DNA of 64,000 nt from Cobetia sp. L2A1 (lineage in GTDB: Bacteria > Pseudomonadota > Gammaproteobacteria > Pseudomonadales > Halomonadaceae). The notes beneath the pieces were generated by a model. The model saw nothing but the letters and a program-made list of their open reading frames with translations, searched no databases and had not been told where the DNA came from. Shown piece by piece: positions 641 through 49,400 of the stretch. A program made the position numbers and the translations under genes. Location of the stretch: the NCBI RefSeq assembly GCF_009796845.1, contig NZ_CP047025.1, forward strand, positions 3,596,001 to 3,660,000, written 5' to 3'. Every line of letters starts with the position of its first letter. The first letter of the stretch is position 1.

Positions 641-3600
641 TCAAGCAGCACTGGATTCACCCAGTAATGCCTGCCAGATGGCGACGACGCGCTCACGATG
701 CATGGCCAGCAGCGGATATTGATTCAATCGCACCAGGCTGCTGCGCTTTTCCAACGCCAAACGATGACTCGCATCACGATAGGCAAGATAGGCCTCACGC
801 AGCTCGCTGGCCTGCTCGCCAGGCAGGCGGCCACAGGCTTCCAACGTTTCCAGCAGGCGCATGTTGTCGCTCCACTCCAGCAACGCCGGTACCTGATGGC
901 TCATTGACAGTACGCAGTACTGGGCGAGGAATTCGATATCGACGATACCGCCGGCATCCTGCTTGAGATGGAACTGGCCAGTCTCGCGGTCCTTGGCGGT
1001 ACTGCCAAGGTGGTCGCGCATCTTGTGGCGCATGGCGATGACCTCCTCACGCAGACTGACGGCATCGCGCTCACGATCCAGCACCTCTCGCCGCACCTTT
1101 TCAAACGACTTCGCCAGGGCAGGATCACCGGCCACGGCACGTGCACGTACCAACGCCTGATGCTCCCAGGTCCATGCCTGGGTGAGCTGATAGTCACGAA
1201 AAGCCGTCAGACTCGACACCAAAAGCCCCGAGTTTCCTGAGGGCCGCAGGCGCATGTCGACGTCATACAGCGCACCGGCAGGTGTCACAGCAGTGAGCAG
1301 GTGAATGACGCGCTGCCCCAGACGAGTGAAAAACAAGGGATTGTCGAGGGGCCGAGGTCCGTCCGTCTGGCCCTTGCTAGCGGCGTCATGCAGGAAGACC
1401 AGATCCAGATCCGAGCCATAACCCAGCTCGATACCGCCGAGCTTGCCATAGCCGACGATCACGAAGCTGCCACTCAAGCCATCTCCCGTGATCGACTGAC
1501 CATCACGCCCAACTGGAAAACCGTGCTTGCGAGACAATGTCTTCCACGCCATCGCCAGTACCTGCTCCAACACCACCTCGGCGATGTAGGTCAGGTAATC
1601 GCTGACTTTCATCAATGGCCGAGCCCCTGCGATGTCAGATGCGGCAACGTGCAACACCTGCGCATGTCGGAACACACGCAGCGCCTCAAGCAGTGCCTCC
1701 TCATCGTCTTCGGGAATTCGTGACAGCGCGGTACGCAGCTCATTGGCGAGACGCGCCTTGTCGGCGGGCGAGTAGAGATTGTGCGGATGCAGCAACTCAT
1801 CCAGCAGCACCGGATAGCGCGCCAATTGTTCCGCGATCCACGGACTGGCAGCACATAGACGCATCAGCTGAGCCAGTGCATCAGGATTCTCACGCAGCAG
1901 TGCCAGATAGGCGGTACGACGCAGCACCGCCTCGATCAAGGGCAATACGCGTTCCAACACGCGACTGGCGTCATGCTCACCAGGCTTTTCAGGATCGCCA
2001 GCAGCGGCTCCCAGCGCCTGCAGCAGCGAAGGCATCAGAGCATCAAGTCGATCACAGCCAATACGCTGCATACCCTGCACCGCTCTGGAACGACGTAGCG
2101 TATCCAGCCGCCGCAAACTCTCGGTAGGCGACTCAAAGCTGCTGTCGGCCAGCAGTGTCTCGCCTTCCTCAGTGGTCAGCTCGCCACGCCACAGCGCGCG
2201 CCATTCATCCAACGCCAGCTGACCATCAGCCGGTTCGACATCTTCATCTTCCGGTGAGGCAATCACGTTATCGAAGTGATGACGAATACGGGCACGTACG
2301 GCCTCGAGCCGTTCGTACAGGGCATCCCAATCCGTTAGCGACATGGCCAACGCAAGGCGCTCTCGACCCAGTGGGTCCAGCGGCAATGTCTGGGTCTGGC
2401 GATCCGCCTGCGCCTGCAGTGCATGTTCAAGATCACGCAGGAAGACATAATCCGGCACCAGCTCATCCACCACGGATTGCGGCAGCAACCCCAGCGCCGG
2501 CAAGCGCGCAAAGGCCTGCCGTAGCGAGGTGACCTGTAACTCCGACTCACGTCCGCCACGAATCAACTGGAAAGCCTGAGCGACAAACTCAACCTCGCGA
2601 ATACCGCCAGAGCCAAGTTTGATGTTGTCAGAAAGCCCGCGGCGCTTGACCTCGCGGTTGATCATCGCCTTCATCTCACGCAGTGATTCGATGGCGCCGA
2701 AATCAAGATACTTGCGATAGACGAAGGGACGCAGATGAGCGATCAAGCGCTCGCCTGCTGTCACGCTACCGGCAACAGGACGCGCCTTGAGCATCGCGTA
2801 GCGCTCCCACTCACGCCCCTGATCCTGATAGTAACTGGCCAGCATCGAGAAGCTGCCGACCAGTGGTCCGCCATCGCCCAGCGGACGCAACCGCATGTCA
2901 ACGCGGAACACGAAGCCATCAGAGGTCATCGCGTCCAGTGCTGCGATCAGCTTCTGCCCAAGGCGTGTGAAATATTCCTGATGGTCCAGTGACTTGCGGC
3001 CACCTTCGGTCTCGCCTTTATCGGGGAAGGCGAAGATAAGATCGATATCGGAGGAGAGATTGAGCTCGCCGGCACCCAGCTTTCCCATGCCCAGTACGAC
3101 AAGGCGTTGTGGCTCACCGAAACGGTCCGGCGAGGGGTGGCCATAACGCGGTGCCAGCGAAGTCTCCAGCCACCCAAGCGCTCCCTCGAGCGTGACCTCG
3201 GCCAGCCGTGAGACGGCGCCGGCCGTATTCCACATTTCAGCACCATTCAGATCACGCCACACGATGCCAAGCATGCGCAGCTGTCGAAAGCGGCGCAGCA
3301 CACTCTGCATCATCTTTTCGTCAGTCGCTGTTGCAAGCCCTTCGGTCAATCTTGCCGTTAGCTCAACGGCCGGCAAGGCACGCTCAAGCTCGCCACTGGC
3401 GACAAGCTCCGCCAGCAATTCAGGACGACGACACAGAGTATCGAGAGCAAAATCAGACAGCGTAACAAGCCGCCCCAGCTGGTAGCGCTGCGCCTCATCG
3501 AGCGTAGTAAAGGCCGTCAGCGGCGATGTCTCATGACCTCGCATCTCGCTGAGATCACGGGCTTGCGCCAGACTGTCATTGAGACGCTCAAGTGCGCTGT

Positions 3601-3718
3601 GGACGGCGCTTTCAAGAATCGCGCGACTCTCTTCAGACTGCTCGGAAAGCAGTGATGACAGCGGAAAGAAATCAGCGGACAGCAATTGGCGGGACTGTGC
3701 GGGGGCGGGCTGGGGCAT
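641..3718 (-). CDS. glnE: Bifunctional glutamine synthetase adenylyltransferase / adenylyl-removing enzyme
   Basis: The enzyme adenylylates glutamine synthetase under nitrogen excess and deadenylylates it under nitrogen limitation, controlled by PII proteins. The protein has 1025 residues with the family's duplicated nucleotidyltransferase fold. The N-terminal (removase) copy carries GMGKLGAGELN...SDIDL at about residues 209-232. The C-terminal (transferase) copy carries GYGKLGGIELGYGSDLDL at about 752-772. The ATG at 3716-3718 is chosen because an AAGGAG site precedes it; an in-frame start 16 codons upstream has no such site. It is somewhat longer than E. coli GlnE (about 946 residues). It stands alone, with a hairpin separating it from dgkA upstream. 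Confidence 0.95.
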   Translation of the reverse strand: MPQPAPAQSRQLLSADFFPLSSLLSEQSEESRAILESAVHSALERLNDSLAQARDLSEMRGHETSPLTAFTTLDEAQRYQLGRLVTLSDFALDTLCRRPELLAELVASGELERALPAVELTARLTEGLATATDEKMMQSVLRRFRQLRMLGIVWRDLNGAEMWNTAGAVSRLAEVTLEGALGWLETSLAPRYGHPSPDRFGEPQRLVVLGMGKLGAGELNLSSDIDLIFAFPDKGETEGGRKSLDHQEYFTRLGQKLIAALDAMTSDGFVFRVDMRLRPLGDGGPLVGSFSMLASYYQDQGREWERYAMLKARPVAGSVTAGERLIAHLRPFVYRKYLDFGAIESLREMKAMINREVKRRGLSDNIKLGSGGIREVEFVAQAFQLIRGGRESELQVTSLRQAFARLPALGLLPQSVVDELVPDYVFLRDLEHALQAQADRQTQTLPLDPLGRERLALAMSLTDWDALYERLEAVRARIRHHFDNVIASPEDEDVEPADGQLALDEWRALWRGELTTEEGETLLADSSFESPTESLRRLDTLRRSRAVQGMQRIGCDRLDALMPSLLQALGAAAGDPEKPGEHDASRVLERVLPLIEAVLRRTAYLALLRENPDALAQLMRLCAASPWIAEQLARYPVLLDELLHPHNLYSPADKARLANELRTALSRIPEDDEEALLEALRVFRHAQVLHVAASDIAGARPLMKVSDYLTYIAEVVLEQVLAMAWKTLSRKHGFPVGRDGQSITGDGLSGSFVIVGYGKLGGIELGYGSDLDLVFLHDAASKGQTDGPRPLDNPLFFTRLGQRVIHLLTAVTPAGALYDVDMRLRPSGNSGLLVSSLTAFRDYQLTQAWTWEHQALVRARAVAGDPALAKSFEKVRREVLDRERDAVSLREEVIAMRHKMRDHLGSTAKDRETGQFHLKQDAGGIVDIEFLAQYCVLSMSHQVPALLEWSDNMRLLETLEACGRLPGEQASELREAYLAYRDASHRLALEKRSSLVRLNQYPLLAMHRERVVAIWQALLGESSAA

Positions 3719-4212: not shown

Positions 4213-4443
4213 TTCTCGTGCGGAGGCAGAATGAATCGCTGCGCAGGGCCGGTTTCAAGATCGGTTTTCAAGGGGGCCTTTCAAGACCAGAGACTACCCG
4301 GAGCCTGGTGATCGAGCATGCTCCAAGACAAAACGGTACGTGATAATGGCGGCGATGATAGCAAAGCTGAGGCGACAAGATATCCGCAGTGCTGCCCGTG
4401 GCTCCGATCCAACAATAACAAGGTATCGAAACGGATATCGCCC

Positions 4444-35189: not shown

Positions 35190-35266
35190 TGGTGCGCCCT
35201 GGAGGATTCGAACCTCCGACCGCCTGATTCGTAGTCAGGTACTCTATCCAGCTGAGCTAAGGGCGC
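35190..35266 (-). tRNA. tRNA-Arg (ACG anticodon), copy 2
   Basis: A 77-nt cloverleaf with acceptor GCGCCCT, D-loop AGCTCAGCTGGATAGAG, anticodon stem CCTGA/TCAGG with loop CTACGAA (anticodon ACG, expected to be deaminated to ICG), T-arm GGTTCGAATCC and encoded CCA. It is identical to the copy at 35335-35411 and forms one transcript with it and tRNA-Ser. Confidence 0.97.
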
Positions 35267-35334
35267 ATAAACCTGTAAACTTGTGGCCTGAGTCTCTCAC
35301 GAGATTCAACAGGACTTTCTCTTGCATGGTGCAG

Positions 35335-35411
35335 TGGTGCGCCCTGGAGGATTCGAACCTCCGACCGCCTGATTCGTAGTCAGGTACTCTATCCAGCTGA
35401 GCTAAGGGCGC
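35335..35411 (-). tRNA. tRNA-Arg (ACG anticodon), copy 1
   Basis: Sequence identical over its 77 nt to the copy at 35190-35266, including the anticodon loop CTACGAA and encoded CCA. The 68-bp spacer between the two copies is unrelated sequence, consistent with a tandem duplication followed by drift. Confidence 0.97.
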
Positions 35412-35433
35412 ATCTTACTGCATTTGTACCTAA

Positions 35434-35526
35434 TGGTGGAGAGAGAGGGATTCGAACCCTCGATAGGGCTATAAACCCTATACTCCCTTAGCAGGGGAGC
35501 GCCTTCAGCCACTCGGCCACCTCTCC
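35434..35526 (-). tRNA. tRNA-Ser (GCT anticodon)
   Basis: A 93-nt type II tRNA. Acceptor GGAGAGG, anticodon stem CTCCC/GGGAG with loop CTGCTAA (anticodon GCT, reads AGC/AGU), and the long variable arm TATAGGG...CCCTATC are all present. The T-arm GAGGGTTCGAATCCCTC and an encoded CCA complete it. The discriminator base is A (CTCTCC-A-CCA), whereas the E. coli serine tRNAs I know have G. First gene of the cluster tRNA-Ser, Arg, Arg, downstream of csrA as in many gammaproteobacteria. Confidence 0.96.
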
Positions 35527-35544
35527 GCATCAGGTACGGCGCAT

Positions 35545-35573
35545 ATCTTACTCATTTGATTAGGCTTTGTCTA
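35545..35573 (-). promoter_or_regulatory. Sigma-70 promoter of the tRNA operon
   Basis: Minus strand: TAGACA (35573-35568), 17-bp spacer, TAAGAT (35550-35545). This places transcription start about 12-15 bp before the tRNA-Ser 5' end. Close to the TTGACA-N17-TATAAT consensus. Confidence 0.65.
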
Positions 35574-35880
35574 GCCTCTGCGTCTATTTTTTGGCTTCAA
35601 TGTTAGACATCTCAGACCAAATCAACAGCAGGCTCAGGGCTGCGCGCGCCTGGGCAATCTCCCCGCATGAACCAAACCAAGACGATGGCTTGCCTGTCGT
35701 CGTGTCTCGTTCGAGGGAGCGAGCATATTACCCGACCAAAAGACGTCTGTCTTCCCCTTCGTGAGAAAAAAGTTATCTTTTTCCCTTATGGAACACTGAC
35801 TTGAGGCTAGCTGCCATCAAGAATGGCATTCAGGGACTGTCACGACATCGTGCTCGGCGCTCAATGACCGCCAGGGGACA
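35574..35880. other. Spacer between tRNA promoter and csrA
   Basis: No gene recognised. The short open frames lack start signals. The only notable structure is the csrA-side hairpin immediately to the right. Confidence 0.5.
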
Positions 35881-35927
35881 AAACATGAACGCCAGCCATG
35901 GGGACAAAATGGCTGGCGTTCATGTTT
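35881..35927 (-). terminator. csrA terminator, 19-bp perfect stem
   Basis: AAACATGAACGCCAGCCAT (35881-35899) pairs perfectly with 35909-35927 around a 9-nt loop. In the minus direction the stem ends GTTTTG. The decamer GGGGACAAAA occurs both in the loop and just beyond the stem, a direct repeat. Confidence 0.7.
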
Positions 35928-35969
35928 GCACTGCGTGTGACTTGTACAGTTCTCAGGTGCATTACGCAT

Positions 35970-36161
35970 TCAGGCGATAGCGTCACCATTATCTTCTTTT
36001 TCGCGCTGAATACGCTGGTAGATCTCTTCGCGATGAACGGCAACTTCCTTGGGGGCGTTCACACCGATACGCACCTGATTACCTTTCACACCTAGAACGG
36101 TGACGGTGATGTCATCACCAATCATCAGCGTTTCACCCACTCTACGGGTCAGGATGAGCAT
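35970..36161 (-). CDS. csrA: Carbon storage regulator CsrA
   Basis: An RNA-binding dimer that blocks or stabilises mRNAs at GGA motifs near ribosome-binding sites, controlling central carbon flow, motility and biofilm formation. The protein has 63 residues. The canonical start [24 protein letters not shown] has the RNA-contacting residues L4 and R6. The core [22 protein letters not shown] has the critical R44. An ideal AAGGAG precedes the ATG and itself contains a GGA, allowing autoregulation. It lies between lysC and tRNA-Ser. Its antagonist RNA is probably the one encoded at 46960-47729. Confidence 0.97.
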
Positions 36162-46516: not shown

Positions 46517-46840
46517 ATGGCATTCATCGTCACCGAGAACTGCATTCGCTGCAAATACACTGATTGCGTGGAAGTTTGCCCCGTAGATTGCTTTTACGAA
46601 GGCCCTAACTTCCTGGTGATCAACCCGGACGAGTGCATCGACTGTGCGCTGTGTGAGCCGGAATGCCCAGCCGAAGCCATCTTCTCTGAAGACGAAGTGC
46701 CGGAGAATCAGAAGGAATTCATCGAGCTCAATGCTGATCTGGCCGAAGTGTGGCCAAATATCAGCGAGAAGAAAGATGCCATGGCGGAAGCCGAGAAGTG
46801 GGACGGTGTCGACGGCAAGCTGGAATATCTGGAACAGTAG
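46517..46840 (+). CDS. fdxA: 7Fe ferredoxin FdxA
   Basis: An electron carrier with one [3Fe-4S] and one [4Fe-4S] cluster, of 107 residues as in Azotobacter/Pseudomonas ferredoxin I. The motifs are [18 protein letters not shown] (the 3Fe cluster ligand spacing) and [16 protein letters not shown], and the characteristic long C-terminal extension continues to GKLEYLEQ. The ATG follows AGGAGA at ideal distance. It sits after mutS. In Pseudomonas the gene next to fdxA is the regulatory RNA rsmZ, and here too a GGA-rich RNA gene follows, convergent with fdxA. Confidence 0.95.
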
Positions 46841-46959: not shown

Positions 46960-46987
46960 AAAAAAGGGCGACCCCGTAAGGTCGCCC
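46960..46987 (-). terminator. Intrinsic terminator of the CsrB-like RNA
   Basis: Minus strand: GGGCGACC - TTACGG - GGTCGCCC followed by six T. There is no minus-strand protein gene before it; it closes the GGA-rich transcript. Confidence 0.9.
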
Positions 46988-47729
46988 GCTCCAAGCGTGT
47001 CCCTGTCGATCCATCCTGGATCGTATTCCTGAGTGCTGTCCCTGCCCTTCGCAACATCCTGTCACTCGGAGCGCACTTTCACGCATGGTGGGTGTTGTGG
47101 CACTGCTTTCGCAGCTGTCCCACCACAACACCCGATGCCACTATCTTGCCTGCCCTGCTGTAGTACACATGCATTGCCCGGCATCCTGCCGATGCTGCTC
47201 CATGTCCTGCTTCAGCTAACAGCCTCATGACACTCCATGATCTGACAAATCCCTGTCGCGGCGTCCTGCCGCCAAGCTGCTGCTGACTGCCTCGTCTGCC
47301 CTGACACGGATGATGTCCCGTCATCCGTCACTCCTGTGAAGGCGAGCGTCCTGCTGCATATCCGAGCGATTCGATTCAAAATGACTCGCTCTCGACGTTC
47401 CCTGTCGCGGTGGACCGTCCTGGTCCTGGCACTCTCTCCGGTGCCATGTCCTACCATACCTGATCCTTGGCTCCGTCATGCCTGCTCCTTAGACATGATG
47501 GACATGCAGATATTCTGCTTTCGACGTCCTTGCCGAGTCCTTTTCACTGAACATCCTGTTCAGTAGAGCCAGAAATCCTGTCCGGCTGAAAACCTTGCAC
47601 TTGCTGCCCATCCCGTTTGCATCCTGCCGAGACTGCGGTGTCCCGCCGCACCCTCAAAGCCATGACGCTATTCTGGTCAGCTATGGTTCGCGTGGCAACT
47701 GCACCAACTAGCTAAAATGCTAAACGCTA
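46960..47729 (-). ncRNA. csrB: Long CsrB/RsmZ-class CsrA-sequestering RNA
   Basis: The stretch encodes no credible protein but on the minus strand carries about 35 GGA triplets by my count, many as CAGGA or AGGAC. Several sit exactly in apical loops of perfect short hairpins. These are GATCCA-GGA-TGGATC (47008-47022), CGGCA-GGA-TGCCG (47179-47191), GCGGC-AGGAC-GCCGC (47258-47272), ACGGATGA-loop-TCATCCGT with GGGA (47306-47328), GGACC-AGGAC-GGTCC (47412-47426) and CTGAACA-GGA-TGTTCAG (47547-47563). A longer stem-loop spans 47090-47133. This is the architecture of CsrB/CsrC/RsmZ decoys that titrate CsrA. The 5' end is inferred from a -10 at 47736-47741, giving about 770 nt against 369 nt for E. 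coli CsrB. A GacA-like box lies upstream. Exact ends and activity are inference. Confidence 0.88.
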
Positions 47730-47735
47730 ATTAAC

Positions 47736-47838: not shown

Positions 47839-47856
47839 TGTAGGAAAAGGCTTACA
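47839..47856. promoter_or_regulatory. GacA/UvrY-type upstream activating sequence
   Basis: TGTAGGAAAAGGCTTACA matches the TGTAAG-N6-CTTACA palindrome bound by phosphorylated GacA at rsm genes, with one mismatch. It lies about 110 bp upstream of the inferred RNA start. Confidence 0.7.
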
Positions 47857-47930: not shown

Positions 47931-47963
47931 AACGGGGCCGTGCCTTTTGGGCACGGCCCCGTT
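47931..47963 (-). terminator. eno terminator
   Basis: AACGGGGCCGTGCC (47931-47944) pairs with GGCACGGCCCCGTT (47950-47963) around TTTTG, 57 bp after the eno stop, ending GTTTG in the minus direction. It insulates the CsrB-like RNA gene. Confidence 0.8.

Positions 47964-48019: not shown

Positions 48020-49400
<1,381 letters not shown>

Follow-up and report, generated by a model that had tools for sequence, protein, structure and literature searches.

We conclude with high confidence that the minus strand of positions 46960-47663 encodes one noncoding RNA of about 700 nt, an RsmZ counterpart of fourfold size, whose GGA-containing loops are predicted to bind many CsrA molecules and to free CsrA-controlled mRNAs in this way. 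The reading is drawn from the DNA: a GacA box, a promoter-like site and a terminator, an enrichment and conservation of GGA, hairpins with compensatory changes and synteny with rsmZ, in a genome where genes assigned as csrA, gacA and a gacS-like kinase are present and where a Cobetia-specific insertion of about 525 nt holds 25 of the 35 GGA. The RNA would be transcribed as one piece, controlled by GacA and bound by CsrA, and its added length would serve to raise the CsrA-binding capacity per transcript.

The locus lies between fdxA and eno in the analysed window, a 64-kb stretch of a 4.12-Mb, one-contig Cobetia genome. The gene order, with names assigned from the translations, is presumably mutS (+), fdxA (+), the RNA (-), eno (-), kdsA (-) and pyrG (-). 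The first-pass annotation had placed an RNA of about 770 nt at 46960-47729, bounded by a U6 terminator and an upstream promoter region. The locus and the terminator were confirmed. A promoter-like site was found as well; however, it falls inside that interval, so the predicted start moves to about 47663 and the length becomes about 704 nt rather than 770. All 35 GGA lie inside the predicted 704-nt RNA. The features of the locus are as follows.

46960..47663, minus strand: predicted sponge RNA (giant RsmZ), about 704 nt with 35 GGA, delimited by promoter and terminator and marked by GGA excess, conservation and structure
46517..46840, plus strand: fdxA, convergent neighbour, presumably a 7Fe ferredoxin (named from its translation)
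48020..49309, minus strand: presumably eno (named from its translation), which lies upstream of the RNA and shares its strand
47931..47963, minus strand: terminator-like hairpin past eno, 14-pair stem with tail TGTATTTC, which parts eno from the RNA gene
47693..47698, minus strand: -35 element TTGCCA
47670..47675, minus strand: -10 element CAGAAT, replaced by CAAAAT in one Cobetia; other Halomonadaceae have CACAAT, CAGAAT and similar forms
46966..46987, minus strand: intrinsic terminator stem, 9 bp and G+C-rich, followed by T6 at 46960-46965

On the minus strand, TTGCCA-17-CAGAAT (47670-47698) was the sole promoter-like site of the region, and the T6 stem at 46960-46987 and the stem past eno at 47931-47963 were the only terminator-like sites. 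The expectation from the shuffled region was 0.8 promoter-like and 0.7 terminator-like sites.

The minus strand of 46960-47729 contains 35 GGA, 18 AGGA and 13 CAGGA, as compared to 5 GGA on the plus strand, in agreement with the earlier count of about 35. When both strands of the 64 kb were searched for their richest 770-nt segments, the maxima were 36 GGA, 19 AGGA and 14 CAGGA, all in segments overlapping the RNA locus; the plus-strand maxima were 20, 8 and 5, respectively. We also shuffled 46960-47735 1000 times with its dinucleotides preserved, so that the GG and GA content was unchanged, and obtained maxima of 34 GGA, 17 AGGA and 8 CAGGA versus the real 35, 18 and 13.

The locus is present in all six Cobetia genomes examined, with a length of 704-723 nt, 34-40 GGA and 73-99% pairwise identity. 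In the alignment, 24 of the 35 GGA (69%) are kept in all six genomes, compared to 34% for triplets overall, and no other of the 38 triplet types with eight or more copies is kept as well. In the consensus fold of the six sequences, twelve hairpins present GGA in their loops, and these hairpins comprise 68 pairs. GGA hairpins had been reported before as at least six perfect ones; their existence stands and their number is corrected to twelve, as listed below (all on the minus strand).

47634..47650, minus strand: GGA-loop hairpin h1, pairs invariant
47567..47587, minus strand: GGA-loop hairpin h2, five pairs with compensatory change
47545..47565, minus strand: GGA-loop hairpin h3, two pairs with compensatory change
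47521..47536, minus strand: GGA-loop hairpin h4, two compensatory
47428..47445, minus strand: GGA-loop hairpin h5, one compensatory
47412..47426, minus strand: GGA-loop hairpin h6, one compensatory
47328..47339, minus strand: GGA-loop hairpin h7, pairs invariant
47307..47327, minus strand: GGA-loop hairpin h8, pairs invariant
47258..47272, minus strand: GGA-loop hairpin h9, one compensatory
47178..47192, minus strand: GGA-loop hairpin h10, without both-side change
47051..47065, minus strand: GGA-loop hairpin h11, two compensatory
47007..47023, minus strand: GGA-loop hairpin h12, pairs invariant

In these hairpins 397 of 407 cells are paired, and 14 pairs, distributed over seven of the twelve hairpins, have both partners changed in one or more sequences. 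As a control, we slid the partners by 1-3 columns, which left 26-48% of cells paired and 2-3 pairs with both-side changes. Because this alignment itself produced the fold, the unslid paired-cell count is favoured, and the both-side changes weigh more as evidence; five of the hairpins have no both-side change (four have no change at all) and so give no covariation evidence. Relative to column-shuffled alignments, the fold z values of eleven 120-column segments were -8.0 and -10.4 for the first two, between -2.3 and -3.3 for five others, and -1.3, -1.0, +0.2 and +0.5 for the remaining four. Columns 601-720, in the shared 3' module described below, are among these four with little or no structure beyond the shuffles. 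With four of eleven segments near the shuffle level, not all 35 GGA need be presented.

We folded each of the six Cobetia RNAs and found 9-18 hairpin loops with GGA per sequence. The mean unpaired probability of GGA was 0.62-0.73 in all six folds versus 0.36-0.39 for all triplets. GGA ranked second to fifth in openness among triplet types, with AAG, GAA and AGG similarly open.

Upstream of the promoter, two further features were found.

47839..47856, minus strand: GacA box TGTAAGCCTTTTCCTACA, the sole zero-mismatch match to TGTAAGN6CYTACA in the 4.12-Mb genome
47699..47838, minus strand: AT-rich linker from GacA box to promoter, 66% AT versus 42% in the RNA

A reversed box pattern used as control occurred at 4 places per strand with up to one mismatch, versus 5 for the real pattern, so only the exact match counts. 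At the six Cobetia loci the box stands 157-159 bp upstream of the -35 element and 192-194 nt from the predicted start (193 nt in the source genome), with 11-12 of 12 box letters. For comparison, the distance from box to RNA in 19 Pseudomonas rsmZ loci was 179-191 nt, with 9-12 of 12 box letters; a passage of PMC4353343 gives the rsmZ GacA box as TGTAAGCATTCGCTTACT.

These Pseudomonas loci come from a scan of 20 of the 24 fetched loci named Pseudomonas, with the fdxA end at 4318 in each. In 19 of the 20, Rfam RsmZ lies directly past fdxA on the opposite strand, 56-242 nt after it, and the fdxA-rsmZ organisation described in portions of PMC9788540 and PMC4353343 agrees with this. The Pseudomonas helleri locus (L040) was the sole one of the 20 without an Rfam RsmZ match beyond fdxA. 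The Cobetia RNA has the Pseudomonas rsmZ order: it lies downstream of mutS-fdxA and opposite fdxA, with its terminator end facing that gene. Location and orientation are those of RsmZ, the GacA box stands at nearly the rsmZ distance, and the size differs (704 nt predicted, compared to about 130 nt). Judged by position, orientation and box distance, the Cobetia RNA is very likely the positional ortholog of RsmZ. The initial assignment to the CsrB/RsmZ class is thereby supported and, together with the compensatory GGA hairpins, narrowed to RsmZ.

In order to compare the RNA with its counterparts in the family, we searched 151 Halomonadaceae genomes, of which 149 had an fdxA match. The length sample consisted of 68 distinct fdxA-eno intergenic stretches of 400-1400 bp; we dropped 21 for lack of a match to the promoter pattern and 2 for lack of a terminator match, which left 45 loci with both. 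The promoter pattern was written after some of the 68 stretches had been seen. Predicted lengths were 704-723 nt for the six Cobetia and 168-192 nt for 38 of the 39 others, and these 38 contain 9-12 GGA. The sole other enlarged RNA (L172, genome G163) has 302 nt and 13 GGA. The GacA box is 153-159 bp from the -35 element in 32 of the 39 non-Cobetia loci and lies outside that range, at 121-170 bp, in the other seven; in two of these (L135 and L159, spacing 121-122) the chosen promoter may be wrong. The stretch between box and promoter was richer in A+T than the RNA in all 42 loci measured (of 45 in total, three lacked a box by the stricter pattern).

We then built a covariance model from the 38 short RNAs, in which 20 of 34 consensus pairs have both-side changes. 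It matched 111 of the 151 family genomes at E of about 1e-12 or better, where the genomes used for building the model match by construction. A further 22 genomes gave weak matches only (E 4e-6 to 6e-3), of a strength also scattered through the source genome, and 18 gave none. In the source genome the model scored 53.3 bits at the locus, covering the last ~179 nt of the RNA end to end, and 28.4 bits at the next best place. The match to the short-RNA profile splits around an insertion, as follows.

47609..47638, minus strand: 5' piece common with the short RNAs (GGCAGGATGC..CGGGATG), profile E 9e-4 here
47084..47608, minus strand: Cobetia-specific interior insertion, about 525 nt with 25 GGA, around which the profile match splits
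46961..47081, minus strand: 3' module common with the short RNAs, profile 41.7 bits and E 1.2e-13, covariance model 53.3 bits

The 5' piece corresponds to RNA nt 26-55. Its match is modest in the source genome, stronger in three Cobetia (E 1.3-1.9e-5), of E 1.5e-3 in a further one (G003) and absent in another (G001, E 1.1). The last two thirds of the profile match RNA nt 583-703 (E 1e-13; 1.5e-12 in G001). Among 58 genomes, no match outside Cobetia extends more than 4 nt into the insertion. The simplest explanation is that the enlargement took place in Cobetia, because both Pseudomonas and the remaining Halomonadaceae have short RNAs. Tandem duplication was rejected as its source, as the insertion has only two short direct repeats (18-19 nt) and no tandem array. 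A plasmid origin was rejected as well, since no plasmid match was found. A DNA search of the source genome with the RNA returned one place only, which speaks against a second copy other than a divergent one. Four of the 12 weaker model matches and all five one-mismatch GacA box places had at most 2-5 AGGA per 300 nt, compared to 12 here.

This two-part anatomy raises the question of whether the sponge is made as two or more shorter RNAs, with the 3' module as a working RsmZ and the insertion as a second transcript or a processed leader. The end-to-end fit of the short-RNA model to the last part of the RNA and the absence of the insertion from relatives would suit such a division, as would RNase processing of Csr RNAs, which is known in other genera. 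However, the single promoter-like and single terminator-like site of the minus strand bound the region with none inside, the promoter stands at the 5' end with the box spacing of the family, the 5' piece of the short RNAs is found there in most Cobetia, and structure is strongest in the 5' part. We consider a division unlikely and prefer one long RNA.

That the transcript is instead a long UTR, read through from eno, or an antisense RNA acting on the fdxA message and not on CsrA, appears very improbable. Although eno lies upstream on the same strand, fdxA converges, and Alcanivorax CsrR2 is antisense to a ferredoxin gene with a dual role proposed by its authors (in a portion of PMC9788540), the predicted RNA has its own promoter-like site behind the hairpin that follows eno, ends about 120 bp before the fdxA stop codon, and has GGA loops as its conserved elements. 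A protein-coding or decayed coding region, GGA-rich on one strand by chance, can practically be dismissed: open stretches exist in single sequences and are chance (87 codons sense in the source genome, 156 sense in another Cobetia, 241 antisense in one of six), but none of the frames of either strand stays open across the six aligned Cobetia sequences, indels relative to the source genome are mostly not multiples of three (lengths of 1, 2, 4, 8, 11 and 17 bases occur among them), mismatches show no codon period (26/29/33 by codon position, counted against the nearest relative), and the hairpin pairs change together. The coding reading was rejected by these frame, indel and codon-position tests, and the earlier statement that the region has no credible protein gene holds. 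Period-3 substitution without GGA hairpins, which had been named as evidence against a regulatory RNA, was looked for and the opposite was found, the GGA hairpins being kept.

As the first-pass annotation had recommended, the Rfam models were run, and no match in the window reached the gathering score. RsmZ (PrrB/RsmZ, RF00166) scored 20 bits at the locus compared to a cut-off of 44 (E 0.055), at the 3' end only (46960-47085). RsmY (RF00195, cut-off 57 bits) scored 11.3 bits at the locus and at best 23.9 elsewhere in the genome, and CsrB (RF00018, cut-off 71 bits) had no match at the locus at E up to 10, its best in the genome being 9 bits elsewhere. With all three under their cut-offs, membership in these families as modelled was rejected. 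At gathering score, none of 27 loci with short Halomonadaceae RNAs and neither of two further Cobetia loci was matched. The expectation that automatic annotation could miss the RNA fits these results. As a Csr/Rsm sponge more generally, the predicted RNA has multiple GGA in conserved hairpin loops (twelve, with compensatory change in seven), a noncoding sequence with its own putative promoter and terminator, and a CsrA in the same genome.

The gene for this predicted protein partner lies in the window, 11 kb from the predicted RNA, and three tRNA genes stand beside it on the minus strand (35193-36161).

35970..36161, minus strand: csrA, 63 aa, predicted protein partner (NCBIfam CsrA 120.7 bits, cut-off 73), the sole CsrA match in the genome

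A GacA gene was found beside uvrC (NF007018, 288.3 bits, cut-off 280). A hybrid kinase, with BarA and LetS as its best families, is encoded a few kb from a relA/spoT-family gene; it stays under the NCBI BarA cut-off (616 of 890 bits) and under that of LetS, and the BarA-type sensor domain PF09984 is absent from the genome.

Under the proposed mechanism, phosphorylated GacA would bind the box at 47839-47856 and activate the promoter about 160 bp downstream, and the RNA would be transcribed up to the T6 terminator. CsrA dimers would then bind the GGA loops and free CsrA would fall. CsrA is a dimer that binds two sites, so that the 35 GGA could accommodate about 17 dimers at most; judging from the twelve conserved loops, six would be the minimum. 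To our knowledge, 34-40 GGA per transcript is the most for any Csr/Rsm RNA. We further propose, at evenly balanced confidence, that the Gac/Csr switch of Cobetia runs on one giant sponge, in which the ancestral RsmZ of the family, about 170 nt long, received the insertion of about 525 nt and went from about 11 to 34-40 GGA. This single RNA would replace the several sponge genes of Pseudomonas, Vibrio and E. coli, Larsenimonas would have reached the same end independently through a row of four RsmZ units with inner terminators that lost their T-runs, and capacity would be tuned by RNA length and not by gene number.

Several related loci deserve mention. In two Larsenimonas genomes (L142 in G034 and L198 in G069) the fdxA-eno intergenic stretch has four RsmZ-like units in a row, with four short-RNA model matches in each genome and, in L142, a 103-nt core of 63-86% identity. 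By eye, a T-run follows only the last terminator stem and none of the inner ones, suggesting that the array is read through into a single long RNA. Neither Larsenimonas genome had a GacA box of the usual form. In a Moraxellaceae MAG (L052), 400 nt of the minus strand at about 2900-3700 contain 14 AGGA; hairpins with AGGA in the loop and a terminator were seen by eye, and there was no Rfam match at gathering score. This region, about 1.5 kb beyond fdxA, is probably another unrecognised Csr sponge RNA. In nine Salinicola loci (L049, L068, L125, L149, L161, L163, L176, L177 and L181) the fdxA-eno gap is only 90-229 bp and the RNA is missing. The five short-gap Salinicola genomes searched all had GacA boxes elsewhere, and the 200-nt stretches past the Salinicola boxes had at most 9 GGA (highest in L207 and L212) and few AGGA. 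One locus (L022) has an unusually long fdxA-eno gap of 1689 bp, with 32 GGA on the plus strand versus 20 on the minus strand, and may hold an extra gene.

With the Cobetia RNA, the Gac pathway of the Halomonadaceae gains a concrete candidate for its sponge RNA. A table of the 2020 review PMC7366521 gives 'Unknown' for the sponge RNA of Halomonas anticariensis, and names quorum sensing, exopolysaccharide and biofilm as controlled by Gac. Our search of the open-access literature (Halomonas and Chromohalobacter with CsrB, RsmZ, GacA and CsrA) found no named Halomonadaceae sponge RNA; none is named in passages of PMC7366521, PMC12889724, PMC13414033, PMC6471967 and PMC9049629, and Halomonas, Chromohalobacter and Cobetia are absent from the main text of the InvenireSRNA paper (PMC5568370). 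Nothing was found in that literature on the rsmZ linker or on RsmB length. Position and promoter link the RNA to rsmZ even between families that the Rfam model does not bridge. With two separate enlargements of the sponge it can be asked directly, by experiment, whether the number of binding sites per RNA sets the Csr switch.

The proposed mechanism is the established Gac/Rsm scheme, in which transcription is switched on by GacA and CsrA is captured by the GGA loops of the accumulating RNA (as outlined in part of PMC7366521). Pseudomonas RsmZ/PrrB (RF00166) shares with the Cobetia RNA the place opposite fdxA, the GacA box distance, GGA hairpins and an intrinsic terminator; it differs in size, with Rfam matches of 119-136 nt compared to 704 nt, 35 GGA and the insertion in Cobetia. 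The short Halomonadaceae RNA at the same site has the GacA box, promoter, spacing, 5' piece, 3' module and terminator in common with it, whereas it has no insertion and the Cobetia RNA is about four times its predicted length. E. coli CsrB (RF00018), which lies at another genomic place than the rsmZ-type locus, resembles the Cobetia RNA in being long, in its many GGA hairpin loops and in repeats of the CAGGA type. It differs in having 356 Rfam model positions, so that the first estimate of about twice the length of CsrB was right, and it has no match over the cut-off in the Cobetia genome. A portion of PMC7366521 gives 18 CsrA sites for CsrB, 11 for CsrC and 23-28 putative motifs for the three Vibrio cholerae RNAs. 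Alcanivorax CsrR2, likened here by its published description (part of PMC9788540), also lies beside and opposite a ferredoxin gene and is regarded by its authors as a functional homologue of rsmZ, but it has fewer GGA (six unpaired) and overlaps the ferredoxin gene. The Pseudoalteromonas Pf1 sRNA is likewise a marine Csr sponge with a GacA-type box and little similarity to E. coli CsrB, and its effect on CsrA was shown by glycogen staining in E. coli (excerpts of PMC9927453). Pf1 has fewer GGA (21), and its authors report relatives from Pseudoalteromonas alone; the position of the Cobetia RNA, in contrast, can be traced to rsmZ. The kind of RNA is already known; the size and anatomy of the Cobetia RNA are new.
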